NCBI GenBank assembly: GCA_014607495.2
Contig: CP053153.1
Location: 6,076,001-6,140,000 of the forward strand
Reading direction: 5' to 3'
DNA from: Carposina sasakii
Lineage: Eukaryota; Arthropoda; Insecta; Lepidoptera; Carposinidae
DNA length: 64,000 bases
The position numbers were made by a program, and so were the translations under genes. The first letter of the stretch is position 1. Each line of letters begins with the position of its first letter. The notes beneath the pieces were generated by a model. The model ran no database searches. It worked only from the letters and a program-made list of their open reading frames with translations, and was not told where the DNA came from. This document shows positions 7,320 to 27,693 of the stretch, in pieces.

Positions 7320-10300
7320 ATGTATAATGTTACCCCTCGCTTATTTCGAATACCTCGGGAAATCTGTTCTTTATCCCGATTGCCAATAAAGGATTCAGCA
7401 AGGATTTGCACACCGCCGCCTTTGAGTTTACAAAAACATTATTCTACTGAATATTACCAAAACGACAATGAGCGCAAATTCTCATATAAATTGGCTTGCT
7501 ACTCCCTGATATTTGGCGCTACTGCATTCGTGACTTATAAGTGCTGGTAAGGTTTATCACTATTTTAACAAAGTTATGATATTTACTAAATACCTACCTA
7601 TTTGTTAAATCTAGACTATTCTAGACATGGTACCATTCTTATAATCTTGGGTGTGTTTTTTCAGGATAAAATCTCAAGTATTTCCAGCCATAACAGCAGC
7701 TGAAGAATTAACAGAAAATGATTGTGAAACAGAAGGGGATACTAAAAAAAAGAGATATAGAAAAGAGAAGATTGGTTTCAGAGATCGGAAGGTAGGCCCT
7801 AGTATACAATTGCCACTATTTTACCTACATTTCACTTCATTCATAAAGATATCTTAAATTACTTTTATGTTTAACATTATATTCATTTTTTTGTTGTTTA
7901 CTTTAATTTCTTTCCCATTAGATAATAGAATATGAGAATCGTATGAGATCATATTCAACTCCTGACAAAATATTCAGGTACTTTGCTACTGTAAAGTTAA
8001 CAGTCAATGAAAATACTGAAGTTTTTATGACACCTGACGATTTTTTAAGAGCAATTACACCAGGCATGAAACAACCTGATGGTATGTTTTTTATTTATTT
8101 CCAATCTTCTATGTCTTCTTGTAATTAACAATGGACAGGGGAATAACGCTCATTCTATCTCCATCATGTCTTCACAGCTTTTACAAAGTATCTGTAGTTT
8201 TTGGTAATGGTAACTAACTACCTATTTTAACATGTTTATCTAATTATAACACTGCACTGGCAAAAGTAATGTGTCTTACTTAATAATTCAAACTAAAGTA
8301 GCTTTGGCACTGTTAAGATGCCTATAAAAATTAATCAAAAAAGTATGTTGTCGTACCTACTTATGAGCCATCATGTGCTATGTAGTTCTTCCAACATTTA
8401 TACAGGGTGTAACAAAAAGGGTATGTTAACATTTATACAGAACCTATCCACAAAATTTTAGATCTGAAATCACATGTTTATTTTTAACATGGAGAATTTT
8501 TAAAAAAAGGGTATGTTAACCCTTTCTGTTACACCCTGTATATTTCAAACAATATTAAAACATCCTAAAAAGCTATGTAAATAGCATTTATGACCACTAT
8601 AGAGTTAACAAACATAACACAAACCTATCCACTGGATAGAAAATTGAAAACAGAATTAGATCCGAAATCACATGTTTATTTTTCCCGATTGTATCAAACA
8701 GGAGAATTTTTAAATATCTAGCAAGCAGGAAGTGTGTTTTTTCATACAATCTTGCAAATTTTCCTAACAAACCTTTAACTTTTCTAAAATATTGTCTTGT
8801 GATTGTTCTAATTTGTTTTGTGATTTAGGGGAGCCCGAGTCTCAAATGGGGACTTTGATTCTACAGAATGTTATGAGCAAAAAAAAGGTTCATTTTCTAT
8901 AGTGGGGGGTTTACCGTACACTTGTTTAAAAATGTAAAAAAAAATCTATTTATAGCGCGTCAGCATTTATTTTCGCTTATATTACTCATAACTATTAGAT
9001 ATTATCTGACAATTAATAGGGGGTGGCCCCGAGTGGTTGAAAAAAAAAAAAAAAAAAAGTTTTCTGTTACAAAGTGAGTGTTAAGTAAACCCTGTACTAT
9101 TCAAATATATTTCAAACATAATTAATTTTTAATATTAAAAAAAAAAACATCCTAATTTTTCTGCAGCAACTGTCCTCCTGAATCATAATCTACAATATTG
9201 TCAGACCATTTTTGTTTTGCTGCTTTCTTCACAGAAATGATCATATACACTGTTCATATTTATATTTTATAATTTATTGATTTAAAATTGTCGAAATTAC
9301 AATTATTTATGTTAATTATCACTTGCACAGCTTAATTCATAGTTGGCTCTTTGTTAAGTCAAAATACTATTAGCCGCCATTGTTAACAAACGAAAATACC
9401 TATTAATTCTTTGGTTCAGGTTTTCAATACTTAATATTTTTAATTTAGTGTTTTAGTTTTCTTATCATAGGTAGGTCAAAGGTAAAATTAAATGATTAGA
9501 AATTGGATGATAACATTCTGCTAATATCTGTATTTTGATAGATCATAGATCGTTTTTCGCTGGTATGAAAACAGAATGCAAAAAGGAAAAAAAGAAAAAA
9601 AAAAGTGGACGACAATTGAAAAAAAGAAAAAAATATTTTACTCATTTGTTTAAATCTCGCGCCACGTATTGTAACAGATAAATCTTAACAATTGTTCCAG
9701 TGTTCCGATAATTATGGTGGTATAGGTATTTTGCTACTTTTCGTGGTCGTGCTAGCCCGGCTTCGATATATTTTTAAAGCTCTGCTGTCTGGCGTCTGCT
9801 CAGCATCATGACCAGCATGAAGTGTTCATGACTCCTGATGACTTTCTGCGTTCAATGACACCCGGTGTCAAACAGCCTGATGGTAAATCTTTTAAATATT
9901 AGACACATTAGTAGCAAGCAGTTGTGACGGTGCGAAAGTAAGAGATGAATGAGAACGAAAGTAGGCGCAGCGTGGGGGAACCACAGCTCTCTGCCGTGTG
10001 CTCCACCTTTTTTCGATTACCTACAGATTATTATTTTTTTATTAACAACTTATTTTCCATTTTTGCTAATTTTCCAAACGAACCTTTAACTTTTCTAAGT
10101 ATATTATTTTAAAATTGTCTTGTGATTGTTCTACATTTGTTTTGTGTATAAGAAGACCAAAATTAAACAGCTTCCACTTTGTGTATACAAGTAGCTCATC
10201 TACTTTTCTTTTCATACAATTTTTAATACAGATAATCACTCCTCTTTCCCGGAGGGGTAGGCAGAGATCACGGATCTCCATTTGCTACGATCCTGATATA

Positions 10301-13300
10301 CCTCTTTCGCTTTATCTACTTTCATGATACTCTTGACCTGACCTTTCTTTTATAACTGCAAAATCAAAGTGCGCGATGGTGCTTTAATTTTGCTAGACTT
10401 TAAAGTAGTCTTTAAAGTATTTATTAGTATATGGTGAAAATCGCTCATTATTTTAATGTTGATTAATTTGTAAATATTATGCTCCCACAGGTTTGGGATT
10501 GGACCAGTATAGAAGATACGACCCTAAGGTGAGATGTTAATGGTTTTTGCATCATTATTTTTGTTAGTACATATTTATTTTTGCAATATTTATTTTATAT
10601 TAGTACACTGACTGGTTAATAAAATTGAATTAAATTATTCAAAAGTCACTTACTAAAAATGCATGATCTTTATGAATTGTATAAATGGGTTTATTTTCAT
10701 ATAAAATAGTAAAAAAAACTTGTTTCTCTATCTTTGCAATTTTCCTTTGTAGTTCAAAATGGTGATAGAGTTCGTATAAAATCATCTATCTATATTTTCG
10801 CTATATGTAAGTATAGGCTTCGCCGAATGAAATAGGCGGACCTGACCAGCATTATGTTTAGTCCGAGGACTCTCACATTAGTACTTTGAAATATTCATTA
10901 TGTTTTTAAATATCTAAATCCCAATGTGCTAGTGGTCGTTTTTACATTTATTTTATCTTTATACTTATGTCTTCTATGCTGCTCTGGGAGTGAAAAAATA
11001 ACGTGTAATACTACAGCTGCTTCTCTTCCCGGGCATACTGTACAAACCAGTAGAGGGACAAGAGGGTCTTGGTGTTTTGTAGGCGATGGGTTGACCACCT
11101 GTCACTACTAACCGAACTTGTACATCTCAACTATACCCTAAAAATTGGTCAGAAGTGGCACCATGTGGTTCTATCGGCCCTTAGTGCTCTGCCTACCCCT
11201 TAAGGGATAAAGGCGTGATTATATGTATGTATGTATGTTATACTTATGTTTTTCGACTTGTACTTAGTAAGGTTGATCAACGTCGTCGATGGAGAAAAAG
11301 ATTTTCTTGTAATTAACCTACATTGTCGCATAGACGACCCTAGACTACCTGCCCACGTATTGGCTATCTTTTTTGACAGTTCCTAATGATGATCACTCTG
11401 TCAACTTAATGAAATGACAGTGGCATAAAGACTTGCCTTAAGAAAATTTGGCAACAAACACATACACGCCACTTCCATTTACTAGGTTTCAATAAGTGAT
11501 CATCAACTATAAACTGTCAAAAAATTATATTCTAAAATTTTATTATTTTAAAACTATGATATATCTTGGCAGGTAGGTACCTATTGAAACACAACCGCAC
11601 TGGCACCTTCCTTGCCACTCACACCACTTTCTTCTCTTTTCAGAACATCGATGAGGTACTGTCCCTTCACCTTCTCGTTTCTCTGTCGCTCTAAATTCAG
11701 TAAACGAACTTTATTTCAGCACACACAAATTTTTCCCCTTTTTTGCCTTGGTACCGAAGCATACTTCTTAATTTAGTTGACACCATAGATATCTGACTTT
11801 AGAGTAGATTTATTTTGTTATGTTTGTTTGCCCCTTTTTGATTTTAGTTGCTGTTGAATGTCCTGCACACCCTGCATACATTTACTTTTCTAGTATCTAT
11901 CACTTGCATTTGCGATCTCTTAGTTTTTCATTGGTTCCTGTCAATGATTGATGTGGAAAATTTTGCTAATTAATGACACTAGTTAAATAGTTAAAAATCC
12001 GATTTGGAAAATTTGTAATTTTAAATTAGCCAACATAGGTACCAACTTTATTAGATTACCTACTTTTTAGGAGTGAGATGAGGTATTGTCCTGCATCAGT
12101 TCTACCTTTGCAGTGGTGTTAATCATAATATTTACTTTATTGCTGTCATTACGTTACTTAGTTGTATGGGTAGGTACTCTAAAAATGTAATATTTATACA
12201 AGATAAATTACAAGTAAATTATATAAAGAGTGATATTAAATACTATGCCGAGATTAAAATCCATCTATCCATAGCCTCTTACACCCACTGCTGAGTAAAG
12301 GCTTCCTCTTCCCTATCCTCTGTCCTGGGCAAACCTCATCCACTGCTGTCCAGCAACCCTTCGGATATCATCTGATCATCGGGCGGGTGGTCTGCCCCTC
12401 GGTCTTAGAGCGTCCCTTGGCCACCATTCCGTCACCGCCTTGGTCCATCGACCATCATCCCTCCTGGCCAAATGTCCCGCCCACCTCCACTTCAGCCTCA
12501 CGATACGCTTACCCACGTCCACGACCTTGGTTCGACATCGTATCTCCATGTTGGGTATGCGATCGATAAGCGAGATTAAAATACTAGACCAATATGATCC
12601 CGTTCATTGATACCTACTTAGGTAATTTAAATCAAAATTAGTAAATTAAGCATTAGTAATTACAAAACCACTTTAAATTAGCACCATTATTAAAACGCCT
12701 TATTCATCACGAAACAACAATTATGTAAAAAGGTACTAGTCTAATATAATCTCTGAACGTCTTTTTCATTTACTTGGTTACCGTAAATATTTCAGTTAAG
12801 TATGTGTAACATACTACTACAAACTCTTAACCAACATACTACTGCAAAGAACTATCCTTCTGATTTCCAGGAGACACTAATATGTGATGATGAGCATGAG
12901 GTAACTCCTATCTTTTTCCTACCTTTGATAGTATCTCTTATTCTTAAGCTGCAATTAATGCTATTGTTACTGTATTTTGAAAATGGTATATCAAAAGGGG
13001 TCAGTAAAGGAGTATTTCCCATATAATTGTCACACCTTTTGAGTGTCAAATTTATGAATAGGTTATCTGTTAGTGCGCTAATTTCAGGGCATTTTCCTTA
13101 TCCTACCCCTTCGGTTACGCTCTTATATTATATTACATGTAAAGTTAATTTGTCCTCACTTCATTGGTTGTGTAAACTCCAGTACATTAGCGGTCTATAT
13201 ATCTATGCACCCGCATAAATTTAATTAAATCAACATTTCAATAGTAGGCTGTATTACTCGTACATGTGTGAGTAGATAGGTGCAGTTGCGTAATATTTGT

Positions 13301-16300
13301 TTATACTAGTATCGTGAAATTTTCGCCTCTGTCTCTACAATTTACTGTTTCCTTCTCTTTCCAGAATCTCCATCATGAGGTACTACTATTCCCGAATACA
13401 ATAAATTTTAGATCTAATCAATCTTATAGTATGACATACAATAAAATTAAATAATAAAATCTTTCTGCCACCGATGAAAATAGCATACACATTCATTCAA
13501 ACTGTAATTCATTACGCATCACCTTCCTCAACCCATATTTTCCTTTTTTTTCAAGACAATACAAAGGAGGTTAATAATAATAATCATTTCTATTTACTGA
13601 AGTTTTACACAAAGCTAGACTATCTTTTAATATACAGGATGTAACAGAAAGGGTATGTTAAGCGAAAAGCTATGTAAATAGCCCACTATAGAGATCCTAT
13701 TTTCAAAATTTCAGACTCAAATTCATATTATTATTTTTCCAGATAGTATGAAGAATCCCGAAACAACTCAGGAATGTCCATACAATCTTGAAAAATAAAA
13801 ATGTGATTTCGAGTCTCAAATTTTGGAAATAGGATCTCTATAGTGGGCTATTTACATAGCTTTTCGCTTAACATACCCTTTCTTTTACACTCTGTATACA
13901 AAAAATACATCTACACAGCTGTGTTCTCGAAATGGGGTAGCCAGAAGTCTGCAGGATCATACCTATAAGATCTTTCACGAAAGGAGATGTAATTGAAGTA
14001 TTCCAGTGAGGCCCCGCATCAGCACAAAAATATTTCTTTGTTTCTTTTTACATGTGATGGCTGCTATGTCATTAACCGATTTTCGTCATTATCTGCGTCT
14101 TACGTTTTGCATCTTAAAGTTTCCGCTTTAATTCAAAATCAAATAGTTTCACGTGAAAAAAATGATACATTTCAGATCACTTTACAGTTTACATATTAAA
14201 TATTATTATTTCAGGATGTTTATAATGAGGTATCTACTCTTGTTCGTTATCATTTCTGTCTAGTTAGCACTTTGAACTACTTACATATACTAGCCATGTA
14301 TTGTCATGTAACTTTTACTTAAGAACCTTTAACTTATTCCTGCTATTTTAAACTATTATTTAAAATTTTATGTTACGTACATTATTCATTGAAATTATTA
14401 TCATTTACATACTTAACTAGAAAAGTTTAATAATTAGAATATTTGTTCTTATATCGCTAAAAATTTTCACCTACCTATTTCATATCTTATGGACTTGACA
14501 TACTATATCTACCTACTTTTCACTTCTTCATATTCCTCATATAGTTTCAACAGTATTATTATTCAGTAGCTTTCTTACATGTCGATTACTGATATATATT
14601 AACTACGGTACTTACTTCCCTTTTCAACTTTTCAGGGTAGATTATATGATGAGGTAACAGCTCTTCCGTTCCTACATAATGTTTCTTTCGTACATCTCAT
14701 GGTTTTTAAATAATGATTCATGAAACCATTTATTTTTCATTTAAATTCATTTATTTCTCACCACAAATGACACAATATGATACATAACAAAATATTATAC
14801 TTGAAAGGATGGACAGTTGTCATTCATGGGAGACTGGTGCCTGTGTAGGTTCGGAGACCCGTGTTACAGGTCACCAGGCCCCCTTACAATATAGTGGGCA
14901 TACATATTAATATATAGTAAGCACTGTGCAGTATCAGTTCTCATATATTGTGATAGTACTGGAGTGAGACCAAAATTCAAAGAGATATAATCAGAATCAT
15001 AATTCAGTTTAAGGTTTCATAAGCCAAAATATTAAACAAAATAGTATAAACTTTGTACAATTTTGTATTATTGTCAACTAAATTAAAAGTGATATTAAGC
15101 TTAAGCTTAGTAGGATCGTTTTATTTTATGAATCCGTAAATATTATAATTTTAACGCATAGAGTTGTACTGCTTCATCGATCCCTTTTCCCACATTTTGC
15201 AGGATTTTGAAGATGAGGTTTGCCCCTTGCTGTAACCTGTTTTTTGCACCCTGTAGTTTTTATTTTATTTTATATTTTTCCATTCATAAATTATGTTTTG
15301 TTTAGAATACTTTTCATCATGGGTGTATTCATATACTTTTTATCTTAGATGTATTTATATCACGAGTAGTCTTTCACATATGTAAGCTCTAGTATCAAAG
15401 ACTGCACTTTTAGTTAGGATTAGATTATCTTTTATAGAGCAAATAATAAAATTCTAAATCGCGAGTTAAACTAGTATTTTTAGGGAGGTAGAACAGTGAC
15501 GCTTTGTTAAAATTGAAAAAATAAAATGGGTTGCACTCAGCCTGCTTTAATGTAGTGTACCTACCTACCTACTTGTAGTTTTACATCGATCTTTAACTAT
15601 TTTCTTCATCATGCTATGCTTTATTATTTTGTTTTTGAAACTATCTTCTACCATACTGCATACACATACCATGTCCATTATAATATTACTATAAGCCGTA
15701 TTCTGCATAAATATTGGCGATAGATTCAGTCATTAGTTCCCTGGTTGCATAGAAAAGCTTTAAATTATGCAACTCTTGTGTTATTTATTTAATGATATTT
15801 TTTCTACAGAGCATTAACCAAAGACTCAATTTGGATCTGGATGAGGACTCCATCTTCTTCAAGCTTGGCTCGGCTGGATTGATCACATTCAGCGACTATA
15901 TATTTTTGCTGACTGTACTATCAAGTGAGTGCCATAACGTACTTAACTAGAATAGAAAGTAGTACTTGTTACGTAACAGGGAGATATCTAAACGAGAAAA
16001 ATGCTATAGATTGTTGAATACTATGTATTTGTATAGTTTGGAAAATATTTGCCCCTCTCTTGCTTACCTATTCTTATAAAATCTTTTACTATGTATAATA
16101 TATACATATTTTTAGGTTTAAATAACAACATTAACAAATAATTACTTTAATATGCATCAATATCAGTGAATTAATATATAAATTTAAAAACTACATGTTT
16201 CTGCAGACTTTGAACCTCTTCTTGCGGAAAAATAGGCATATACTTGATACATATATGTCTGCTAATTTGTTTTTCTTTTCGTAGACATGACACTATTATT

Positions 16301-19300
16301 ATTATCTGTATGTAAATTATTTTGCAGTGTTGTTGAGGGTTTGTGATAACCATTGTTAATGTTGGGCAGATATGCCTAGGTATATTGCTGTTATCAGACA
16401 TCGGCAGTTGGTCTTTTTATTCAAGCGTCTTATATTAGGTATATGTTCACACCTACTCTTTGATATTAAATATTTATACGTGGAGATTTGTAATTGGCAT
16501 AGTATATGGATATTCTTTAAGTCAATGATGCTATACTGCTGTAAATCTTCCCTGAGAGTAAATAAATAAATAACATATTTTACAAAATTAGATTTATTTA
16601 CGAAAATTATTAATAACAATCGACATAGCAACAAGATATACATATTCTAATAACAATTACTTACTTCCTAACATATTCGTAATATATATTTGGATCATAT
16701 CCGAACATATCAAAATCTAAACCATAGATCGCCAGCAGATCTTTTAGCATTTTCTGATCAAGTTGGTTAAAGTATTTTTTCAACAAACTAGTTGTATTTC
16801 GTCCGTCCTGCGATCTGTTCATGATGACTTTGTGTCGGCGATTCTTTGGGTGTATTGATTTATTTCCTAACACAGGCCATAGCCCAAGTTGTTGAATAAC
16901 ATGCGCAGAATCCCTGTTTAAGGTTTCGACTTTAGCTATCACAGTAAAATTCACTGCACAAGGTGTGCAGAACTGGTAATACGGCGCCCAGTGCTCGTCA
17001 AACGCATGAGATCCGTTTTTCTTGTGTCTATCTATTAAATATGCAACAAATTCGTAGAAAGTTGGCTGTGAACCTGTCACCTTTCCAAGTACTTTGACGG
17101 CTTGTTCTCTGAATTCTGATATAATAGTCCGGGTCAGGTTTCTATAGTACAGTCTGCACGGTTTTGTTTCTAGCTTGTCTCGAAAAGCTGAGAGTAGTCG
17201 CACAAAAGGTTCTCGCACAATCAGTAGGGAGACCACTCCGGGTGACGTCACAGCCTCGCGCACTTCATCCTCCTTGGGCCGGTGAAATTTGTTCCGAGCT
17301 AACGTCAAAGGTGTAAGATTTGTGTGCGCCAACATCATCAAGTCGTATCCACCTAAAACCAGTAAATATATAGTCGCTGATGATTACCCCAAATATAATA
17401 ACGGATTTGCATTTAATTATTATATGTAGTTGTTCTCACCTAATATATTGAACTTGTGCAGCCAAAAAGAACTAGCAGCTTTAAATATATTGCACCAGAC
17501 AATATTATGAGCGTGATCTATAAAGAACTCCTTGCTGTTTATTTTATTTCTGGGCACGGATCGCAGTCGACAAACCTTGTCTACTCTTATAGATCGGTCT
17601 TCTAATTCTTTGATAGTCGCATTGTCTGGTTCTATCCAATCTGTAAAACTATTAACGTTTGTTTGAAAATCGTAGTCTATAGCGTTTGCTGGAGCCTGTA
17701 ACAACAAACAAAAATATTGATCCAGATATATTTGTAAATCTACTGTGGTCAATGAATTTGTTTCATCTTTTCTAAGACTTGAAATATTTTCTTACTACCT
17801 GATACCCAATAGCCTTACTTTCACGACTATGAATCGATCTCGATTTGATTCAGCTTTAGTTTTCAGACTGTCAACACCGAGAGCCCAACAATGTTTTCAT
17901 GTATACATTTCCCCTTTACATAGTCCTGGTGACTGAGCGAATTAAGGGCATGTTATAGAACAAACTAAACATAATCTACGTTACCATCCACTTGGAGTAG
18001 TTGTCAGGTGGCAAGGCCCACCGGTCTCTCACCGACGACGTGTGTGTATCCTTGAAAACTGTCAGTTTCATCACAATCATGTAAAAGGTCGCCACAAGCA
18101 GGAATGTCGCCGTTTTGGCACCGCAAGTTAGATACTGGATCGTCCTTGATTTCATTTTCGCTTGGATCCGTCTGCCTGATAGTTTCATTGCGGCGCGTCA
18201 TTCGGTATCGATGGGAGATGAAGAAAAAACACTGTCGAATATGGTTAAAAGGCGTTATTTTATGGTTGAACAGTTTTAATATGTTAGAGAAACATTGGCT
18301 TGGATGTATTAATAACAGAGATGAATAGGTCCACGCAGCCTCCGAATGAAGTTGTATTGAGCATGAGCGGAAATATCGATCGCAATAGTCGCCCGGGATT
18401 CTATTTCATTTTATATTTTCTTTTCTAGGTGCAGTGGACCAGCGATACATGAATACGATAATTATGAATACTTAATTATCATCTATCTATATGAATGTCA
18501 TTAAGAGGTTTATACATAATATATATAGGTATATAGGTTACATACCAACATTAGTTTTTTTTTACTTCTTAGGTACACTTCATGCGGGATAGAAGTAATG
18601 GATCTAGGTAGGTACACATAATTTTTTTCAATCAGTAAACCTCGCTCGTTTGTATTAAATTTATCACTATCCGTTATATAGGTATACAGTTTTTGTTTCT
18701 TATCAAAAAGTAATTAAAAATTAACGTTTATGGTTATGTATTTTATTTAAAAATTTAACATCTAAGATTTGATTTTACTACAATTCTATGGAGGACTAGG
18801 TACTATAATTTATGTACCTATTGAATGGCAGCATTATACTGTCCATATATCTGTTGTTACATTTCCTATGACAGATGGACTCATAGGTACAGTTAACAAA
18901 AGTCACTTACCTTCAAGCTTAGCGTAAAATGTTGTGGAGAACACTGGGCAATGTTGCACTAGCATAAAAAATGCGTGTTTTCTCAACATTGACACATTTT
19001 GTTCCTAGCTTATGTAAAGCCTTTACGCTTTTTATCGTACAACCCCGGTCAATGTATCCTTTTTTCTCATAAATTATTCAATGGCGCGGCCTCTATAGGT
19101 ACTTGTTGCGTTGTGGCACGCGAGTCGAGAAGTCGCTAGGTTAAAATAAAATAGTAGTTTAGTCGATAGCGTAAGTGTATTTCGAAGTACAATTAAGCTA
19201 TATCTGCTCTAGATTTAGAGAAGTAAATCTTCAGTAGTAGTAGTAGTGGGCCTGTAGCCAATCTATCGCTTCCCATTTAAAGTATATAATTTCTAGATCG

Positions 19301-22300
19301 CACAGGGTCGTCAGTGATCTTAAGTCAAACCAAGTCGGCCAGCCCTGCTGCATATGTATGTGTAATCTACAGCTTTTCTCGTACCTTGCAGCTTCCCGTC
19401 GCCATTTCGAGATCGCGTTCCGCATGTTCGACCTGAACGGAGATGGCGACGTGGACTGCGAGGAGTTCGAGAAGGTGGCCGCCCTCATCCGGCAGCAGAG
19501 CAGCATCGGCTCGAGGCATCGCGACCACGCCAATACGGGAAACACTTTTAAGGTTAGCTACAAGTACCCAGTTAGCCGCGTGGTGCCGGCAGAGTAAAAT
19601 TCGTACCACCCCATGCCTGCCCGTGGGTATCGTACGAGGCGATTAAGGGTGTTCGGGAGGTGGGCTGCAGCGCCTCCCGTGTTAAAAACATAGTCCAAAA
19701 TACAAACTGCGGTCACCAACCCGCCTGCCCAGCGTGGTGACTATGGGCAAATACCCCCCATGGCAGTCTTGTGGCGTGCCCTGGGGGAGGCCAACGTCCA
19801 GCAGTGGACTGCAATAGGCTGATGATGATGATGATGATGATATAACTCTGTCAGGCGACCAACCCAGCGCCGGTGCGGATTGAACAAGAGATGTATCTAT
19901 ATATTCGAAGGAAGGAGTTTCAAAGGGCTTATAGGAAGCACTCACTCCAAGGTCTTTCTAATAAAATACTGATATTTTTGTTCACCAATGTCCCTCTAAT
20001 TAGTTCATTATAGTTCCATTCATTCCTATCCTTTATATTTCACCCTTCATGCTTTATTAATTCCAGGGAATCAATTCAGCTCTCACAACATACTTCTTCG
20101 GGCCGAAGTTGAACGAGAAGCTTACGATCGAGAAGTTTCTGGAATTTCAACAACAGCTGCAGAAAGAGATACTTTCCTTAGAGTTCCAACGCAAGCAACC
20201 TGGTAATATTGCTTCTCGCTCACGCATTGTCAAAATCCGTCTTCTTTTAACTAGCTAGTGTAGTTCACATCTGTCCCCGCTAAGTTAAACTTTGGATGTG
20301 ATATCTCCCATATGATCGTGCAGTTCTGGCTACCCCATTTCGGGAATACAGCTGACTATATGTAGGTATGTATGTAGTGAGTAGTGTAGGTGGGTAGTAG
20401 GTAATTGTAAAGTAAGCAGCGGCCCCTTACAACGTGAGATATGCTGACATTTTAAAAATTGGTGTGGAATTTGCACACTTCTGTTTGGGTATATCTAGTA
20501 TACCTATGTATGATATGATAAATAAGTGAAAGTTGCGTATGGCAGAAACGAAAACACCAAAGTCAAGTGAATGCAGTGGAAATGAGAGCATTGAGAAGCA
20601 TGTGTGGAGTCACTTTGAAAGATAGAATAAGAAATGAGGTGATCAGAAAGTAATGTGGTATAAATGAGGACGTTACGACGAAGATTGAGAAAGGTATGTT
20701 GAGATGGTTTGGGCATGTGGAGAGGATGGATGAAAGTAGATTGACAAAGAAAGTGTACAACGGAGGAGTGGATGGAAGGAAAGGACCTCACCGGACTCCC
20801 ACCGATCAAATTGGTGAAATTCTAGAGAAAGATCAGGTCAAGAGTACCCTAAACCGACGAGCGTGCATGAAGCGAAAGAGGTGTGTCAGGATCGTAGCAA
20901 ATGGAGATCCGTGGTCTTTGCCTATCCCTCCGGGAATAAGGCGTGATATTTATATATTTATATATCTATGTGACGTAGATGGGTCGAGTGGCGTGCCGTT
21001 AGGTGTGTCCGACATCTTCCAAAATCCGAAATAAAGAATGCGGCGTGTAGTAAACAAGCTTAATTAGGAATCACAAACACTTTCACTGTATCTACGCACA
21101 AGATTACTAGGATTCTAGCGGATAACGTAGAAACGTGGTAAGTACAAGACAGAGGCTGATTAGCACCCGTGCTTCGCTCGACAGACGCAACAAGCCAGCC
21201 CAGAATACCCTCCGGCTCAATTCAAACGACCCGGTGGTCGTTGTAAATCTACCGTGGCGCCCTCTCAGTACTCTGTCTTGTCTTTACCCAAGTGACAGCT
21301 GTCCTCCAGTCAGTGATAGCTGTCGACTTGACGTTTCTAACTTCAACGATTGAAAATAGATGGCGTTGGAGATCCGACTGTAGGATATGACATCTTGATC
21401 TCCGACACGGCCATTTTGACAGACTACCCGTCCTCGGGTAGAACCGATGAATCTGTGAACAAGATAACTCAAGGAAGTATCTGCGCTCGGCCATTCTGCC
21501 TTAACTTAAATTTAAAGACTTCTTATTACAATAGTTCATGAAATCACAAAAATCGCTCATCGACCGTCAAGTTCCCAAAATCTTTACGTAAAGACATAAA
21601 AAATAAAAGATAAGCAGACTCGCACATACGTTTAAATCAGTCAGACCTTTCCTTCGGTCAACATTACAGTAACAGTTAGTCATATAGCCAGTCCTTCGGC
21701 TATCTACTATGGAAACACAGTCCTTCGGTTTCCAACACACACATGTAGCACAGTCCATCGGCTACCTACTACGGAAACACGGTCCTTCGGTTTCCCACAC
21801 ACACACATGTAGCACTGTCCATCGGCTACAGCAGAAACTCGGTCCTTCGGTTCTGCCACAAATACATACTACTGTCTGTCAAGGGTTTGTCAAAGTCACA
21901 ATTTAAAAAAACCGGTCAGTAACTTGTACATCGCATATGAAAATTCATTCATTTAGACTCTGAGGTCACATTAATTTCGATATCAAAATTACTAGGAACT
22001 TGATGGTCTGGCACCCTACGGACCCGATCGTGCGAATATTTGTAGGTTCGATTTGAAGACAAAGATTTTAGTCGGTATCTATCACCATCTAACAATTAAA
22101 TTTTATACGGTCCTTAAAATTTAGGATCTAGTTTAACTTGATTACGTTTTTCATTCTTAATGAACACATCTAAGACACGTCGTAGACGTTCCAACCCCTG
22201 CTCTCCTGTAGAATACAATACCAGCAGGTCATCAATGTAAGAAACAATATAACTATGAGCTAATTCACCTAAAGCTTTTGCTATAGCCCGCTGATAAACT

Positions 22301-25300
22301 GAACTGGCGTTCTTTAAACCAAACGGCATGGCACACACAAGGTAAATAATTCCAAAACAAGGCTACAGTATACACAATCCATATAGAGTAACGTCAGTCA
22401 AGTAAGTCTAGTTGCCTCAATCTAGCAACTCTTGGAAACTTCCATCCAGCTTCCGTAAACCAGTCTAGTCACTTCCATCCAGTGACTCTTGGAAACTTCC
22501 ATCCAGCTTCCGTATACCAGTCTAGTCACTTCCATCCAGTGACTCTTGAATACCTCTATCCGGTATCCGTAAACCACTCTCAATCAGTCAACTCAACATT
22601 AATTAGAACATGACGGTCCATCCCCGTCAAGTTCGCACAGATTATCATCACGGTCACATGTCAGCATGTCATTGGTAATGTCATTCGCAGGCATTCGCCT
22701 AAGTCTGTCATGTGCGTACTTATAGGTTCTATTGGAATTAAGGGCTTTAAGAACATAACGATTACCTTCAAGTACCTCCGATACCCTAAAAGGACCTCTA
22801 TACTTCGGATCAATTAATCGAATTTCGAGTTCACCTGTAGTTACACGAGTTATTGGCAAACCTGTTGTAAAATAACTGGAATATTCACCTAAAATAGTTA
22901 AAAGATCTGACTTTTTACAAGAGGGTATATCTGTGTCAACATTACTAAAGTCGTTACTGATACTAGAATCGGTTAAAACGTCACAATTTAAAACTGTCAA
23001 ATTATTTTGTTTTGAAATGCTAAAATTATTTGTTGACAAGTTAATAACGAAGCCTTGACTCAATATTTCACGACCTAGCATAATATCACTACGCATATAC
23101 ACATCGGGTAAAACATGTAATAAAAGTTCTAAACAATAATCATTAATTTCAACATTACACAGTATTTGCTGGGTGCTGAATACACTGGTTTGACCAATTC
23201 CCGTTAGAGAGACAGTTTTAGCAATTCTTTTACCATTGAAACTTGATGCAACGCTTTCTTTTATTAGTGAACACTCAGCACCCGAATCAAAATGAAAATC
23301 ATAAAATCTACCTTGATTATTAAGAGCGCCGGTCGGTGGTAAAGCGGTAAGTGCAACTATCTTTCGTGGATTCAGACGAATTTGACCTCGGCGCACCTCG
23401 AAGCCTAGGTACTCTACTTTTTCTTTCAGGAATGAGCACTTTTTAGGATTTAACGAAAATCCCTTCACAGAAAGAACTTCTAATACTACCTTTAGTCTAT
23501 CGAAAGCTTCGTCGATGTTACTGGCCACAACTAGCACGTCATCCATGTACACTACAACGTACTTGTTCACGAGATCGCCTAGAGCATATATGAGAGCACG
23601 TTGAAACACTGCAGGAGCATTTTTCAAACCGAAGGGCATAGTAAGGTACTCATACTGACCTTCAGTTGTCACGAATGCTGTGCGCTCTATGGACTCCGAC
23701 TCGATAGGGATCTGGTGAAATCCCGATGCTAAATCTAAAATTGTAAAAAAATGTCCTCCGTGCAACCTAGCAATCTGTTCAGATATGAGTGGTAAAGGAA
23801 AACGGTCAGCAACGGTGTTATCGTTCAACTCCCTATAATCGACACACATTCTATCTGAACCGTCTTTTTTTTTACCAAAAGTATCGGGCTTGCGAACGGT
23901 GAAGAACTAGGTCTAATTACCTTAGCATTAAGCAGCTCGTTGATCTTGCCCCTCACAATCTGACGTTCATCTGGGGTCAGCCTGTATGGGCGACGATTTA
24001 CCGTCTTGTGCGGGTCTACGAGCCGTATCTGCATAGGTTCAGTGTCAGCAGGAGAAGTAGGTGTACCGGTAATGAAACTAAGCTTGAACCGTTCTAAAAT
24101 CTCAATCAACCTAGGTCTGTATTCATTACTAACGTCAGTATCTACCAAGTCAAGGTCTATACCATTATTTGCAACTACATCACATGATTCGACTATGTTA
24201 ATTTTCTCGAAACGTACTTTATCTACCGACATATGTACAGTCAAACCGATAGCTAGAATTTCACGTCCGATCATAATGTTGTATCGCAAACAATGGTCAG
24301 GTAAAACATGAAGGAGTATCTCAAAGTTAATATTGTCAATGTCAATTGTCGTTAAAATTTGCATGGTCGAGGCTATAGAAGTTTGTCCTATACCAGTCAT
24401 AGAAACATTGTCATAAATTCGCTTACCACTAAATTTCAAAGCAATCGATTCTTTAACTAAGGAACACTCTGAACCTGAGTCGTAAGTAAATGGGAATGAC
24501 TCACCAGAGTGACGCAGAGAACCCGAAGGCGCATTCACAATGCACACGTCTACTCGCTTTTCCTTAGCTGGACCAGTTCCAGTGCCGCCGCCGGTACCGT
24601 TGTTCCCCTCCTTGATTTTCCTCTTCGGGCAGTCGGATGCATAGTGGCCTTGTTCCCGGCAGTTGAAGCAGGTGATGCGATCGGTTCTCCCTGTAGGTTG
24701 GTTGGTCGAGTTATGGTCCCCGTGAAAGGACCTGTGTTTGGACCGGTCATCTTGCTTCTTCGAATTGGCTTTGTTGCGACATTGAAGAGATTTGTGGCCT
24801 AGTTGTCCACAATTAAAGCACTTGATGGTCACAGCAGATCCATTAGGTCGGTTTCTTTTTAGGTCGGGTCCATCACGATAAATACTTGATGAATAACTTC
24901 TCTTCAGGAACGAGACAGCCTTCAGTTCCTTTTGTAAATGGTTACGCGTCTTGATGTCAGTCGTTATAGCAATCCTCTGAACACGTGGCTCTTGTTTTGA
25001 AATATGAGCTAAGACAGTGGCTATTGCTATCTGTTCTGTAGTCAGTCCATTCCACCTTGCCATTAAGGATGTTATGAGGGTAGCGGCGTATGAGGCCAGG
25101 CACTCGTTATCTCTCGGTTTCTTGTCGTGCATACTGATGAGAAAGAAGCAGCAGTTTCAGGACAGTCATACCTTGCTACGAAAAGCTCCTTAAAATCGGC
25201 CCACGTCATATTAGGAAACGATATTGAAGACAGCCAAGATGATGCTTCGCCCTTGAGTGCATGGCTTAACGCGATCATCAGAGAAGATCCATGGCGATGT

Positions 25301-27693
25301 CGATCTGTGATACACATGTCCGCGGTCGATATCCAAGCTCGGGCGTCGATGTCTCTTTTTCTCTGGGTCGAAATCAGGAAGGCGAATAGAGTCCGAAGAT
25401 GCAGGTAGTTTTATTGCTTGCACCAACGCCAGAAAATTTTGATTTTGTTGCTCGAAGAGAAGACGCCATTTTTCTTCGCTCGAGTCACTATTTGAAGCAC
25501 GTGTTTCATGTGGGTGATCCGGGTTGCATCCCACGCCTGATGACGTAGATGGGTCGAGTGGCGTGCCGTTAGGTGTGTCCGACATCTTCCAAAATCCGAA
25601 ATAAAGAATGCGGCGTGTAGTAAACAAGCTTAATTAGGAATCACAAACACTTTCACTGTATCTACGCACAAGATTACTAGGATTCTAGCGGATAACGTAG
25701 AAACGTGGTAAGTACAAGACAGAGGCTGATTAGCACCCGTGCTTCGCTCGACAGACGCAACAAGCCAGCCCAGAATACCCTCCGGCTCAATTCAAACGAC
25801 CCGGTGGTCGTTGTAAATCTACCGTGGCGCCCTCTCAGTACTCTGTCTTGTCTTTACCCAAGTGACAGCTGTCCTCCAGTCAGTGATAGCTGTCGACTTG
25901 ACGTTTCTAACTTCAACGATTGAAAATAGATGGCGTTGGAGATCCGACTGTAGGATATGACATCTTGATCTCCGACATATGTATGTATGATAAATAAATA
26001 AACTCAATCTTACAATGTGCTACGTTTTCTATTTTAGTCAGGATGCGCAGCACAAAAAAATCGTACATTGACCTTTAGGCGTATAAGGATATTTACTGAG
26101 GATTAATTACCTTTGCTGTATTCCCAGACGAAAACGGGCGTATAACGGAAGCAGACTTCGCGGAACTACTGCTGGCATACGCCGGCTATCCTGCTAAGAA
26201 GAAGGCAAGGATGTTGAAACGCGTTAAAAAGGCGTAAGTAAACCTACCTTCGTCTTCAGCCTATTGCAGTCCACTGCAGGACATAGGCCTCCCCCAGAGT
26301 ACGCCACAAGGCTACTGCCATGTGGGGTTTTGCCCATAATTGTCTTTGCCCATTGTCACCACGCTGGGCAGGCGGGTCGGTGACCGCAGTGTGATTTTTG
26401 GACTATGTTGTCAGCACGGCAAGCGCTGCTGCCCACCTCCCGGAAACTCTTAATCGCCTCGTACGATACTCACGGGCAGGCTGGGGTGGTGGACTCTACT
26501 CTGCCGGCACCACGCGGCTAAACCTACCTTACAGTGCCGTAAATAGGGCGGAGCCACCAGTTCCCAGTCACAGGGCGTAGACTTTGGGGGCGCAAGAATG
26601 GCCAAACTAGATAGGACTAAATAGGGCGCAGTTATAGAAGCTCACGCAGGGTGCAGAAAATGCTATTTACGCCACTGCTACCTTATTCCGACACTAATAG
26701 CCTGTTTATCGAAGGCAGTCGATTTAAACTGTCATTTCATGGATTGTCATCGTGAATTTACGTATACGTAACTGTTATAAAACTGGTGCGGCCTGTATAT
26801 TTCCGAAGATCTATCGTGGTTTCTTAGCAACGACCCGATATTAAGGTCATTTATTTTCCTAATTCCAGGTTCCGAGACCACGGCAAAGGCATCACCAAAG
26901 AGGACTACCTAAACTTTTTCCACTTGCTGAACAATATAAACGATGTGGACACCGCTCTGACGTTCTACCACATAGCAGGCGCGTCCATCGATCAGCCGAC
27001 TCTAAGGCATGTGGCTAGGACGGTCGCACACGTGGACTTGAAGGAGCATGTTATTGACGTAGTTTTCACCATCTTCGATGAGAATAGTAAGTGTTTTAGT
27101 TCATGATGCATAGTAGAAAATTTCGTACTATGTATTACAAAAAAAAATAGAGATTGTTTCAGTTTAACATTTGATCTAATTTGACGATTTTTCCATACAT
27201 TTTGCTGTCAAATCACATTTTTAAGCAGTGTTGCAATGTTTATCATTTTGGTACTTAAAATATGACTTAAAACCCCGTATATTGAGGTTTAACATTATCT
27301 AACTAATGAAATCACAAAAGAAAATTCGGTCTGTGAAGTTTTGCAGCGCAGTGTTTGTCACATTCTTATTCGCACACCGCATTTTATTAGTAAAAGAAGG
27401 CTCTGTGGTGGCCATCCGAATTCTAGAATAGTCGCGTGTACACAATGGGCAACTATAAAGCCTTTCGCACACAAGTAGTTAAGTATATGTTATGTTATTA
27501 TTCTAAATAAAAATAAATAAAAAATACCATATTAACAGTGGACGGGCAGCTCAGTAACCGGGAGTTTGTAGCCGTTATGAAGAACCGCCTCCTTCGCGGC
27601 CTAGAGAAACCAAAGGACACGGGCTTCGTCAAACTGATGCATTCTCTCATCAAATGCGCCCGAGACACAAAACCCGCCATCTTGGACTTTTAA
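7320..27693 (+). CDS. MICU1: Mitochondrial calcium uptake protein 1 (uniporter gatekeeper)
   Basis: MICU1 is the intermembrane-space EF-hand regulator that sets the calcium threshold of the mitochondrial uniporter. Exons: 7320-7546, 7665-7791, 7922-8081, 10491-10528, [microexons], 15810-15924, 19392-19552, 20067-20202, 26128-26233, 26869-27086, 27539-27693. All junctions are GT-AG and phase-consistent, giving 480 residues without microexons (human about 476). Features: an N-terminal presequence with a hydrophobic segment at about 58-75; a polybasic run KKKRYRKEK at 103-111; GFRDRK and [15 protein letters not shown]-hand loop 1 [12 protein letters not shown] at 236-247; EF-hand loop 2 [12 protein letters not shown] at 427-438, both with the canonical acidic positions; and a conserved Cys469 in IKCARD near the C-terminus, matching the cysteine that pairs with MICU2 in mammals. 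It ends ILDF. Introns host a nested gene and a retrotransposon. Confidence 0.95.
7922..8081 (+). other. MICU1: MICU1 exon 3 with internal alternative 5' splice site
   Basis: The full exon runs from the acceptor CCATTAG to the donor G|GTATGT at 8082 and codes from [20 protein letters not shown] to MKQPDG. Inside it, after the codons for FRYFAT, the sequence ACT|GTAAAG at 7990|7991 is a phase-0 donor. Use of this donor would remove the last 91 nt, and the frame continues exactly into the alternative exon at 9804. The full form and the 7990 form are therefore alternatives. Confidence 0.75.
8401..8540. mobile_element. Foldback MITE, family C (copy 1)
   Basis: Inverted ends CAGGGTGTAACA and TGTTACACCCTG are flanked by TA. 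Internal AAAGGGTATGTTAAC is shared with the copies at 13635 and 62060. No coding capacity. Related, more decayed sequence continues to about 8770. Confidence 0.65.
8541..9803. other. MICU1 intron, degenerate repeat and A-rich tract
   Basis: It holds decayed family C-like sequence (about 8560-8770), a poly-A tract at about 9040-9058, and purine-rich A/G stretches at 9580-9640 upstream of the alternative exon. No coding exon was recognised before 9804. Confidence 0.4.
9804..9882 (+). other. MICU1: MICU1 alternative exon (duplicate of the 3' part of exon 3)
   Basis: The 79-nt exon is preceded by TCTGCTCAG and followed by GTAAAT. It encodes [20 protein letters not shown] and then GVKQPDG, a diverged duplicate of the segment [20 protein letters not shown] in exon 3. 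It starts in phase 0, which fits the internal donor at 7991 but not the exon 3 donor at 8082 (phase 1). It ends in the same phase as exon 3 and so joins the 10491 exon. The replaced linker VKLTVNENT (9 residues) becomes HHDQH (5), shortening the protein by 4 residues and adding three histidines. Confidence 0.8.
10224..10345 (-). repeat. LINE 3'-end fragment
   Basis: Read on the minus strand, this matches the tail of the LINE fragment at 20515-20968 (segment around CGTAGCAAATGGAGATCCGT and CCTCCGGGA). A third copy is at 54815-54900. Confidence 0.55.
11104..11240 (+). repeat. Dispersed repeat with ATGT tail (copy 1)
   Basis: The unit CCGAACTTGTACATCTCAAC ... GGATAAAGGCGTGATTATAT ends in an ATGT run. 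A second copy is at 48493-48620, and a short tail piece at about 28327-28370. The end resembles that of the LINE fragment at 20.9 kb, so it may be the 3' end of the same or a related LINE. Confidence 0.6.
11644..11655 (+). other. MICU1: MICU1 microexon 1 (12 nt, NIDE)
   Basis: A strong pyrimidine tract (CACTTTCTTCTCTTTTCAG) is followed by AACATCGATGAG and the donor GTACTG. Phase 0 on both sides, it would insert Asn-Ile-Asp-Glu after residue 184 of MICU1. Confidence 0.75.
12071..12082 (+). other. MICU1: MICU1 microexon-like segment with in-frame stop (12 nt)
   Basis: The acceptor TACTTTTTAG is followed by GAGTGAGATGAG and the donor GTATTG. Length and terminal GATGAG match the other microexons, but the second codon is TGA in the MICU1 frame. 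It is either a dead copy or a poison exon that would trigger decay. Confidence 0.45.
12244..12570 (-). pseudogene. Non-LTR retrotransposon fragment, reverse transcriptase C-terminus
   Basis: Translated on the minus strand it reads [35 protein letters not shown] and WMRFAQDR, the C-terminal region typical of endonuclease-reverse transcriptase LINEs of insects. Stop codons interrupt it, so it is dead. It lies within the MICU1 microexon array between the stop-containing segment and microexon 2. Confidence 0.7.
12871..12900 (+). other. MICU1: MICU1 microexon 2 (30 nt, [10 protein letters not shown])
   Basis: It is flanked by CTGATTTCCAG and GTAACT, in phase 0. It encodes [10 protein letters not shown], the longest of the array. 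It ends in a GAG codon as all the others do. Confidence 0.72.
13365..13379 (+). other. MICU1: MICU1 microexon 3 (15 nt, NLHHE)
   Basis: The tract TTTCCTTCTCTTTCCAG precedes AATCTCCATCATGAG, and the donor is GTACTA. Phase 0; it encodes Asn-Leu-His-His-Glu. Confidence 0.75.
13556..13569 (+). other. Possible decayed microexon (14 nt, out of frame)
   Basis: A strong tract (TTTTCCTTTTTTTTCAAG) is followed by 14 nt ending GGAG and then GTTAAT. The look matches the array, but 14 nt would shift the frame, so it is either non-functional or chance. Confidence 0.25.
13635..13894. mobile_element. Foldback MITE, family C (copy 2)
   Basis: It is a long palindrome: the left arm TGTAACAGAAAGGGTATGTT continues through GCTATGTAAATAGCCCACTATAGAGATCC and reappears inverted before TACACTCTG. 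TA flanks both ends. Adjacent 13915-13960 carries a piece of another dispersed repeat. Confidence 0.65.
14215..14229 (+). other. MICU1: MICU1 microexon 4 (15 nt, DVYNE)
   Basis: It is flanked by TTATTATTTCAG and GTATCT. Phase 0; it encodes Asp-Val-Tyr-Asn-Glu and ends in GAG. Confidence 0.72.
14636..14653 (+). other. MICU1: MICU1 microexon 5 (18 nt, GRLYDE)
   Basis: It is flanked by CCCTTTTCAACTTTTCAG and GTAACA. Phase 0; it encodes Gly-Arg-Leu-Tyr-Asp-Glu and ends GATGAG. Confidence 0.75.
15203..15217 (+). other. MICU1: MICU1 microexon 6 (15 nt, DFEDE)
   Basis: The tract CCCTTTTCCCACATTTTGCAG precedes GATTTTGAAGATGAG. The donor GTTTGC is weak. Phase 0; it encodes Asp-Phe-Glu-Asp-Glu. Confidence 0.68.
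16593..16598 (-). promoter_or_regulatory. Poly(A) signal of the nested sulfotransferase
   Basis: AATAAA on the minus strand, 63 nt downstream of the stop codon, implying a very short 3'UTR. Confidence 0.6.
16661..18188 (-). CDS. Carbohydrate sulfotransferase (CHST11-like), nested in MICU1 intron
   Basis: Golgi type II membrane enzymes of this family transfer sulfate from PAPS to glycosaminoglycan-type sugars. Exons 18188-17985, 17695-17440 and 17352-16661 join at GTAACG/TTACAG (phase 0) and GTGAGA/TTTTAG (phase 1), giving 383 residues. Residues about 24-45 ([20 protein letters not shown]) form an N-terminal signal anchor. The 5'-phosphosulfate loop is at 134-149 ([16 protein letters not shown]) and the 3'-phosphate loop at 196-215 ([20 protein letters not shown]). 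Many N-glycosylation sequons (NATI, NLTP, NLTR, NGSH, NFTV, NKSI, NRSQ, NTTS) fit a luminal domain. AATAAA lies at 16598-16593, 63 nt past the stop. Another ATG 13 nt upstream at 18201 opens an overlapping out-of-frame reading frame. Exact substrate is not decidable from sequence. Confidence 0.88.
18189..19391. other. MICU1 intron, upstream side of the sulfotransferase
   Basis: It should contain the sulfotransferase promoter, reading leftward. I recognised no further exon or repeat up to the TTGCAG acceptor at 19391. Confidence 0.35.
19575..19840 (+). repeat. GATGAT-tailed dispersed repeat (full-length copy)
   Basis: About 265 bp from GCCGCGTGGTGCCGGC to a GATGAT run. This family has at least seven more copies or fragments in the window (6781, 26251, 34091, 38010, 41054, 42609, 44643, 52083), in both orientations. 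It is non-coding and shaped like a short retroposed element with a microsatellite tail. Confidence 0.7.
20515..20968 (+). pseudogene. LINE C-terminal fragment
   Basis: The plus strand encodes [20 protein letters not shown], then after a stop [20 protein letters not shown], then [10 protein letters not shown], the C-terminal region of insect non-LTR reverse transcriptases. It is broken by a stop and frameshifts, and ends in an ATAT/ATCT-rich tail that the Gypsy element at 20971 has interrupted. Confidence 0.75.
20971..21407 (-). repeat. 3' LTR of the Gypsy element
   Basis: Direct repeat partner of 25541-25977, offset exactly 4,570 bp with no difference found on reading. The segment just upstream in element orientation (GTCAAAATGGCCG) is only a weak candidate polypurine tract. 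Confidence 0.88.
21644..21856. repeat. Hairpin array 1 (seven stem-loops, constant loop)
   Basis: Stem-loops at 21644-21659, 21684-21703, 21711-21733, 21745-21765, 21773-21795, 21809-21829 and 21831-21856. The stems alternate between types (ATAGCC/GGCTAT, GGAAAC/GTTTCC, GTAGC/GCTAC, GCAGAA-C/GTTCTGC). The loop stays close to ACAGTCC(T/A)TCG, 11 nt in the last five. It lies between the integrase remnant and the 3' LTR. Confidence 0.87.
21949..22338 (-). pseudogene. Second reverse-transcriptase fragment joined to integrase tail
   Basis: Codons at 22338-22114 give [20 protein letters not shown] and YIDDLLV (YIDD at 34-37), a reverse transcriptase clearly different from the YMDD one. At about residue 64 it joins NQVKLDPKF, the start of an integrase C-terminal region. 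After a frame break this continues as [29 protein letters not shown]. The deletion between RT and integrase is thus of the same type as in the neighbouring chimeric frame. Confidence 0.75.
22410..22568. repeat. Hairpin array 2 (six stem-loops, constant loop)
   Basis: Six short inverted repeats at 22410-22430, 22434-22454, 22467-22487, 22491-22511, 22524-22544 and 22548-22568. The stems differ (AGTTGC/GCAACT, GGAAAC/GCTTCC, AGTCAC/GTGACT, ATACC/GGTAT), while the 9-nt loop is mostly TTCCATCCA. The array follows the stop codon of the chimeric pol frame. Confidence 0.85.
22599..23849 (-). CDS. Chimeric pol frame: reverse transcriptase, second protease, integrase C-terminus
   Basis: A single 416-codon open frame joining parts that do not belong in this order. 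Residues 1-170 are reverse transcriptase ([34 protein letters not shown] at 101-104, NPKKC, VEYLGF). At about 172-181 it jumps to a second aspartic protease, [16 protein letters not shown] with DSG at 188-190, related but not identical to the upstream one. At about 348 ([11 protein letters not shown]) it enters the integrase C-terminal region ([16 protein letters not shown], then HDRLRR). Both junctions keep the frame, the second at a shared Asp-Pro. Catalytic residues of the RT are visible, but thumb, RNase H and integrase core are absent. Confidence 0.8.
   Translation of the reverse strand: MCVDYRELNDNTVADRFPLPLISEQIARLHGGHFFTILDLASGFHQIPIESESIERTAFVTTEGQYEYLTMPFGLKNAPAVFQRALIYALGDLVNKYVVVYMDDVLVVASNIDEAFDRLKVVLEVLSVKGFSLNPKKCSFLKEKVEYLGFEVRRGQIRLNPRKIVALTALPPTGALNNQGRFYDFHFDSGAECSLIKESVASSFNGKRIAKTVSLTGIGQTSVFSTQQILCNVEINDYCLELLLHVLPDVYMRSDIMLGREILSQGFVINLSTNNFSISKQNNLTVLNCDVLTDSSISNDFSNVDTDIPSCKKSDLLTILGEYSSYFTTGLPITRVTTGELEIRLIDPKYRGPFRVSEVLEGNRYVLKALNSNRTYKYAHDRLRRMPANDITNDMLTCDRDDNLCELDGDGPSCSN
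23825..25132 (-). pseudogene. Gypsy gag C-terminus, zinc knuckles, protease and start of reverse transcriptase
   Basis: A 435-codon open frame. CCHC knuckles are at residues 105-118 ([14 protein letters not shown]) and 155-168 ([14 protein letters not shown]). The aspartic protease has its DSG at 218-220 ([12 protein letters not shown]). Then comes the reverse-transcriptase entry motif [20 protein letters not shown] and [12 protein letters not shown]. The reading shifts at a run of nine A residues (T9 on the plus strand, 23865-23873) into the next frame, where MCVDYRELN continues the same domain. Either a mutation or slippage at the run explains the break. Confidence 0.82.
25072..25585 (-). 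pseudogene. gag of the Gypsy element, frameshifted
   Basis: The frame starts at [16 protein letters not shown] (25585) and runs through [20 protein letters not shown] and LPDFDPEKK. At a run of five A residues (about 25361-25365, minus strand) the gag-like reading moves to another frame ([40 protein letters not shown]). It shifts again near 25140 into the frame that carries the zinc knuckles. Two frameshifts therefore break the capsid region. The start lies within the LTR. Confidence 0.75.
25541..25977 (-). repeat. 5' LTR of the Gypsy element
   Basis: In element orientation it begins TGTCGGAGATC and ends CATCTACGTCA. It is identical to the 3' LTR by eye. The presumed gag ATG (25585-25583) lies 45 nt inside its end. 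Confidence 0.88.
26251..26521 (-). repeat. GATGAT-family repeat (near full length)
   Basis: An inverted copy of the 19575 unit that begins only 17 nt after the donor of MICU1 exon 26128-26233. The microsatellite tail is lost. Confidence 0.7.

Follow-up and report, generated by a model that had tools for sequence, protein, structure and literature searches.

Six candidate in-frame microexons within one intron of the MICU1 gene of Carposina sasakii

Introduction

Is a run of six very short open segments inside one intron of MICU1, the mitochondrial calcium gatekeeper, a set of real exons, or something that a pyrimidine-rich intron can produce by itself? The question is raised by a stretch of 64,000 nucleotides of the lepidopteran Carposina sasakii (assembly GCA_014607495.2, contig CP053153.1, positions 6,076,001 to 6,140,000, forward strand), referred to here as the window, in which a first-pass annotation had proposed such an array in MICU1. 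Here we analyzed the position, splice signals, relatives and possible origin of these segments. On the sequence and its homologues we consider it likely that all six are real MICU1 cassette microexons, forming a lineage-expanded array at an ancient site of splice variation.

The gene lies on the + strand at 7320-27693, and its ten exons give a protein of 480 residues. This protein is 84% identical to MICU1 of the butterfly Maniola hyperantus, shows identities that point to a lepidopteran source, has EF-hand families above the cut-off, and finds its nearest solved structure in human MICU1 (4nsc, E 4e-144), with MICU3 (1.8e-37) and MICU2 (7e-33) far behind. By sequence comparison it is an orthologue of MICU1 rather than of MICU2 or MICU3, and the earlier naming of the gene is thereby borne out. 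The array-bearing intron (10529-15809, 5.28 kb) separates constitutive exon 4 (10491..10528, + strand, ending in DPK, donor gtgaga) from constitutive exon 5 (15810..15924, + strand, acceptor cag followed by AGCATT, beginning SINQ), and is in phase 0 at both ends.

The microexon candidates and their signals

All six segments proposed earlier were found in this intron with the lengths, phase and peptides described for them. On the + strand they are m1 (11644..11655, 12 nt, NIDE), m2 (12871..12900, 30 nt, 10 residues), m3 (13365..13379, 15 nt, NLHHE), m4 (14215..14229, 15 nt, DVYNE), m5 (14636..14653, 18 nt, GRLYDE) and m6 (15203..15217, 15 nt, DFEDE). Each has a length divisible by three, an open frame and phase 0, and the introns between neighbouring exons of the array measure 406-1215 nt. 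The pentanucleotide ATGAG stands immediately before GT in all six, so that every peptide ends in D, H or N followed by E; the peptides, 4 to 10 residues long with Glu last, are each net negative (charge -1 to -5).

The donors and acceptors differ in strength. G at position +5 is missing from five of the six microexon donors (the exception is m6, GTTTGC), while among the other MICU1 donors, those of exons 1-9, it is present in eight and absent from one, as counted by eye. Scored with the weight matrices described below, the acceptors of m2 (6.0), m3 (8.2), m5 (6.4) and m6 (7.0) compare with a range of -0.9 to 6.8 for the constitutive exons. Just 3′ of the microexon donors the mean pyrimidine fraction is 0.75, against 0.55 at the 292 GT sites of the intron, and this mean was matched by only 3 of 20000 random sets.

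Comparison with chance

In the suffix test a candidate was a segment preceded by a [CT]AG acceptor with a pyrimidine-rich tract, 9-33 nt long in multiples of three, free of stop codons and followed by GT. The array intron holds 25 such candidates from 21 acceptors, and the largest group with a common 5-nt suffix has six members (ATGAG); a group of six appeared in none of 2000 dinucleotide shuffles, whose maximum was four. Six candidates end in GAG, against at most two in any of the 2000 shuffles. When 24 chunks of 5.28 kb were compared on both strands, the chunk with the array gave six and the remaining 23 at most two each.

The second scan did not use the GAG rule and was based on generic splice-site weight matrices. 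At thresholds of 4, 5, 6, 7 and 8 it gave 8, 6, 6, 5 and 5 candidates, compared with shuffle means of 0.77, 0.45, 0.25, 0.13 and 0.06, and the observed counts were equalled in 0 of 1000 shuffles at all five thresholds. Five of the six microexons are among its top six open candidates of in-frame length (m2 is first, m5 second, m3 fourth and m6 sixth), and m4, with the weakest splice sites of the six, is only eighth. These counts include two other candidates that were not taken as exons, namely 13638 (DVTER, rank 5), which outranks m6 as well as m4 and sits inside a palindromic repeat, and 10753 (rank 7, present at threshold 4).

A stricter scan adds an acceptor threshold, set after the fact at the score of m6. 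Exactly m1, m2, m3, m5 and m6 pass it, all with lengths divisible by three even when other lengths are permitted; of 1000 shuffles, 951 give none, 45 give one and 4 give two, and elsewhere in the window there is one in-frame candidate on the + strand (63033) and none on the - strand. The post-hoc threshold is not crucial, since the matrix scan gives a like result at five thresholds. The array as a set exceeds chance.

Inserts at the same junction in other insects

The junction between exons 4 and 5 was inspected in 125 proteins, which comprise the best 120 of 1561 matches (five of these not parsable at the junction) and 5 of 54 matches from a search aimed at m2-m6. We took 57 of them as lepidopteran (four without species name), leaving 68 others. 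The proteins are mostly computed RefSeq-type models and represent clusters at 90% identity, in which member isoforms are hidden.

No insert is present in 45 of the 57 lepidopteran representatives, ten carry an insert of the m1 type, and two carry another insert of 15 residues. The m1-type inserts follow the pattern N-I/M-x-E (NIDE, NINE, NMDE, NISE, NIGE) at the same junction in eight named lepidopterans: Maniola hyperantus, Trichoplusia ni, Vanessa cardui (two proteins), Bicyclus anynana (with an extension), Danaus plexippus (two proteins), Colias croceus, Pieris brassicae and Hyposmocoma kahamanoa. Outside Lepidoptera an HxxQ or HKLE insert occurs in 12 of the 68 proteins, ten of which belong to named beetles and two of which bear no species name, and MNGE occupies the junction in one protein, that of the phorid fly Megaselia abdita.

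Isoform pairs bear on whether such inserts are optional. Once the insert is taken out, the sequence is exactly that of the sister isoform for Maniola, Danaus, Diabrotica and Tribolium, four of the five pairs compared, and the fifth (Danaus P0038/P0034) has further differences outside the insert. These annotated isoforms show optional inclusion of m1-type exons in other insects at the level of predicted proteins, and m1, which has the ancestral-type sequence, is almost certainly a real optional microexon. The inserts of these insects share junction and length with m1 and are optional in four species; unlike the window, each protein has one short insert type and none has m2-m6. Two versions of exon 3, 3a and 3b, are also used among lepidopteran MICU1 isoforms. 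Danaus P0038 and P0049 differ only in exon 3; in the annotation, then, the exon 3 version changes independently of the microexon.

The 15-residue insert (REQI.FKKN.E.LQK) lies at the array junction in Helicoverpa armigera P0042 and Anticarsia gemmatalis P0039, and its basic charge is opposite to that of the window inserts. Judging by these two models, lepidopterans other than the window species likewise vary the type of insert placed here. The peptides of m2-m6 were found in 0 of the 57 lepidopteran representatives, the aimed search included, although isoforms may be hidden in the 90% clusters; m2, m3 and m4 had no protein homologue among the matches listed. At present, then, the C. sasakii genome is the only one in which the expansion has been observed. 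The earlier proposal of a menu of alternative linkers stands in part: isoform pairs in related insects agree with an optional m1-type insert, and the proteins so far offer no counterpart of the other five.

The Bicyclus insert (P0035, NIDEVQSYLSDY) was considered as two joined microexons and rejected as evidence of joint inclusion, since the V codon starts with GT and the insert would be explained equally well if an m1-type exon were spliced from an alternative donor further downstream. When REQILFKKNKESLQK and NIDEVQSYLSDY were compared with the array intron by tblastn no match was obtained, a weak negative since the partly present exon 3b was also missed by short tblastn. AlphaFold models of P0035 and P0042, two homologues with long inserts, were of poor quality (mean pLDDT 55.8 and 54.6, below 50 around the insert) and were not used.

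Comparison with vertebrate and fly data

Aligned with the human protein, the window has LDQY..K before the site and INQ, against human ISQ, after it, which places both at the same insertion site. Set beside the residue numbering of PMC8909990, the offset is presumably one or two residues.

Human MICU1 has two extra exons, EFWQ (5′) and TE (5″), with an effect on uptake and giving four isoforms, of which MICU1.1 carries EFWQ, MICU1.2 carries TE and MICU1.3 both (PMC8909990). The first-pass annotation had placed a single vertebrate microexon, EFWQ, at about this position; the place holds to within one or two residues, and the number has to be raised to two in human (PMC8909990). EFWQ raises Ca2+ affinity about tenfold and lets the MICU1-MICU2 pair respond at lower Ca2+; the behaviour of the pair is unchanged when TE is the only insert (PMC8909990). 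The loop with the insert is unresolved in vertebrate crystal structures, which kept the authors from inferring how EFWQ acts (PMC8909990). In zebrafish there are two micu1 microexons, which depend on srrm3 (PMC13281805).

The human and mouse exons and the array are alike in gene, site and tiny in-frame cassettes, and in the Glu that ends TE; combinations occur in the vertebrate case and would be possible in the array. The exon m1 also matches the MICU1.1-type exon in size, a 12-nt in-frame segment with splice sites, while m2-m6 have 15-30 nt. They are unlike in number (two exons against six), in that EFWQ is not rich in acidic residues, and in that the vertebrate effects are measured ones.

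Flies are without a MICU2 orthologue, and fly MICU1-A and MICU1-B each rescue the lethal null, in a paper whose text gives no description of these exons (PMC6506686). Neither MICU1 nor CG4495 occurs in the main text of the fly microexon papers PMC8042270 and PMC8797185. Among articles judged by title or the opening of the abstract, with subscription papers outside the scope, none described a microexon array in insect MICU1.

Origin of m2-m6

The flanks of m1-m6 were compared with shuffles. Downstream, the sum of mutual similarity was reached by 500 of 20000 shuffles and the best pair (m2-m5) by 275 of 20000; the donor side of m5 is like that of m2 at 20 of 27 nt. Upstream there is no excess: the sum was reached by 5631 and the maximum by 9141 of 20000 shuffles. 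When whole neighbourhoods were compared against 300 shuffles per pair, three of the 15 pairs (m1-m3, m3-m4 and m4-m5) scored above almost every shuffle. Duplication, by which m2-m6 would share ancestry with m1 and among themselves, is likely rather than proven; the similarity may also have arisen by convergence on a splicing signal.

Possible splicing regulation

All lengths are multiples of three and the exons lie 406-1215 nt apart, so mutual exclusion is forced neither by frame nor by distance. Neural microexons of Drosophila that depend on the eMIC domain of Srrm234 have weak 3′ splice sites, UGC nearby, short flanking introns and a strong CUAAY (PMC8797185). The array shares with them very short in-frame exons and weak donors, and departs from them in its strong acceptors and longer introns. 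UGC lies within the last 20 nt before the exon in one of the six microexons (by eye), and CUAAY was not found near the acceptors of m1-m6. The array does not match the eMIC code of flies. The 200 nt flanking each of m1-m6, upstream and downstream, contained no RBFOX motif GCATG; m2 itself contains one.

A repeat listing of the intron gave many AT-rich inverted repeats, among which no common selector sequence was noticed. A perfect inverted match of 14 nt would pair 12327-12340, in an upstream repeat-like stretch, with 15212-15225 in the m6 donor region and may be due to chance. Between m3 and m4, at 13625-13904, lies a near-perfect palindrome with two 137-nt arms, 88% complementary and 6 nt apart, which we guess to be a small DNA-transposon relic; a sequence like it seems, by eye, to recur near 8410-8545.

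Interpretation

Within the reading of six real cassette exons the parts differ in strength: on their sequence features m2, m3, m5 and m6 are very likely real exons and m4 is a probable one. As all are symmetric and in phase 0, a transcript could take up any one of them, several or none between exon 4 (DPK) and exon 5 (SINQ) and keep its frame. The exon m1 would be an old insect microexon and m2-m6 lineage expansions. Given the phase-0 symmetry and the spacing, the simplest mechanism would be that each cassette is included independently, with trans factors controlling exons whose acceptors are strong and whose donors are weak; in view of the pyrimidine tracts downstream, PTB- or TIA-type proteins are plausible regulators. 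Each included exon would add 4-10 net-acidic, Glu-ending residues to a flexible loop before the first EF-hand, with an outcome probably like that of the vertebrate insert, namely an altered Ca2+ response of MICU1 and hence of the uniporter. We infer that m2-m6 would be spliced into mRNA, combined, controlled by tissue and active in gating; by analogy, uniporter tuning is our leading functional guess. The window inserts do not resemble the sequence of EFWQ, and the insert of the noctuoids is basic, so any effect could go in either direction.

A bolder form of this reading, which we put forward tentatively and hold to be rather doubtful, is a combinatorial splice dial, in which six independent acidic cassettes allow up to 64 combinations and each shifts the Ca2+ threshold or the partner choice of the gatekeeper to its own extent. 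One gene might then supply graded uniporter gating in different muscles and neurons, as the mini-exons of troponin T grade the contractile response to Ca2+. Fast troponin T has a run of small in-frame acidic mini-exons at its N-terminus, combined to tune the Ca2+ response; unlike MICU1 it is a sarcomeric protein with an N-terminal site, and homology is not claimed. Schistosome micro-exon genes also line up many symmetric microexons in a row, in secreted proteins mostly made of microexons, and are unrelated to MICU1.

Several results count against the preferred reading of six real cassettes and its functional extension: the weak donors, five of them without G at +5; the weak splice sites of m4, outscored by the false candidate 13638; the lack of m2-m6 in the lepidopteran representatives; the flank similarity, modest downstream and absent upstream, which leaves duplication unproven; the basic noctuoid insert, which shows that an insert at this junction need not be acidic; and the human TE, which alone changes nothing in the MICU1-MICU2 pair (PMC8909990).

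Some of these points are the strength of the best-surviving alternative, in which m1 is the one working microexon and m2-m6 are old duplicates, or decoys that resemble exons in their splice signals, and enter transcripts seldom if at all. It draws on the 0 of 57 count and on the weak donors, with m4 weak on both sides. Unused copies should lose their acceptors and frames, and the acceptors of m2, m3, m5 and m6 equal or exceed constitutive ones while all frames are open and in phase 0; we therefore judge this alternative unlikely. That all six are constitutive and always joined, giving one acidic insert of 35 residues, agrees with their common frame and single order, and the DNA has no feature that would prevent them from being included together; it is hardly credible beside 45 of 57 lepidopteran representatives without insert, ten with the m1 type and two with another, and the weak donors are those expected of regulated exons. 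Chance imitation by a pyrimidine-rich intron does happen, as candidate 13638 shows, and is possible for m4 alone, but for the set it is very unlikely, since no shuffle among 2000 in the suffix test or 1000 in the matrix scan equalled it and m1 has orthologues in proteins.

Value of the findings

Optional microexons at the MICU1 site are already known in vertebrates, two in human (PMC8909990) and two in zebrafish (PMC13281805). If confirmed, the six-member array, its common acidic design and an insect-wide ancestral microexon would be new. An ancestral microexon would then be shared between moths, beetles and one fly or more, and a site of splice variation in the mitochondrial calcium gatekeeper would have been expanded in evolution. 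The vertebrate crystal structures leave unexplained how a four-residue insert far from the EF-hands acts on MICU1 (PMC8909990), and six natural inserts of differing length and charge would allow length, charge and terminal Glu to be tested separately. Exons of 12-18 nt are easily missed by annotation pipelines, so similar arrays may be overlooked.

MICU1 exons and other elements in the window

The remaining MICU1 exons, all on the + strand, are exon 1 (7320..7546, with the start codon and the N-terminal targeting part), exon 2 (7665..7791), exon 3 in version 3a (7922..8081, a version also found in P0001 and others), exon 6 (19392..19552, with the first EF-hand), exon 7 (20067..20202), exon 8 (26128..26233), exon 9 (26869..27086) and exon 10 (27539..27693, including the stop codon). 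Of the two exon 3 versions, placed at 7922-8081 and about 9700-9882, 3a is complete and 3b keeps only its 3′ part (9804-9882), the 5′ part looking degenerate. GTAAAG at 7991 within exon 3a is a possible donor for an in-frame join to 9804, with a poor donor score.

An open reading frame at 59888-60511 on the - strand looks by eye like a mariner-type transposase, for which Pfam gives only a helix-turn-helix below the cut-off. Retrotransposon remains, with reverse transcriptase and zinc-knuckle reading frames, occupy 22602-25633 on the - strand of a MICU1 intron, and a sulfotransferase gene (16661-17791, - strand; Sulfotransfer_2, E 8e-38 for 16664-17383) is likewise nested in a MICU1 intron.

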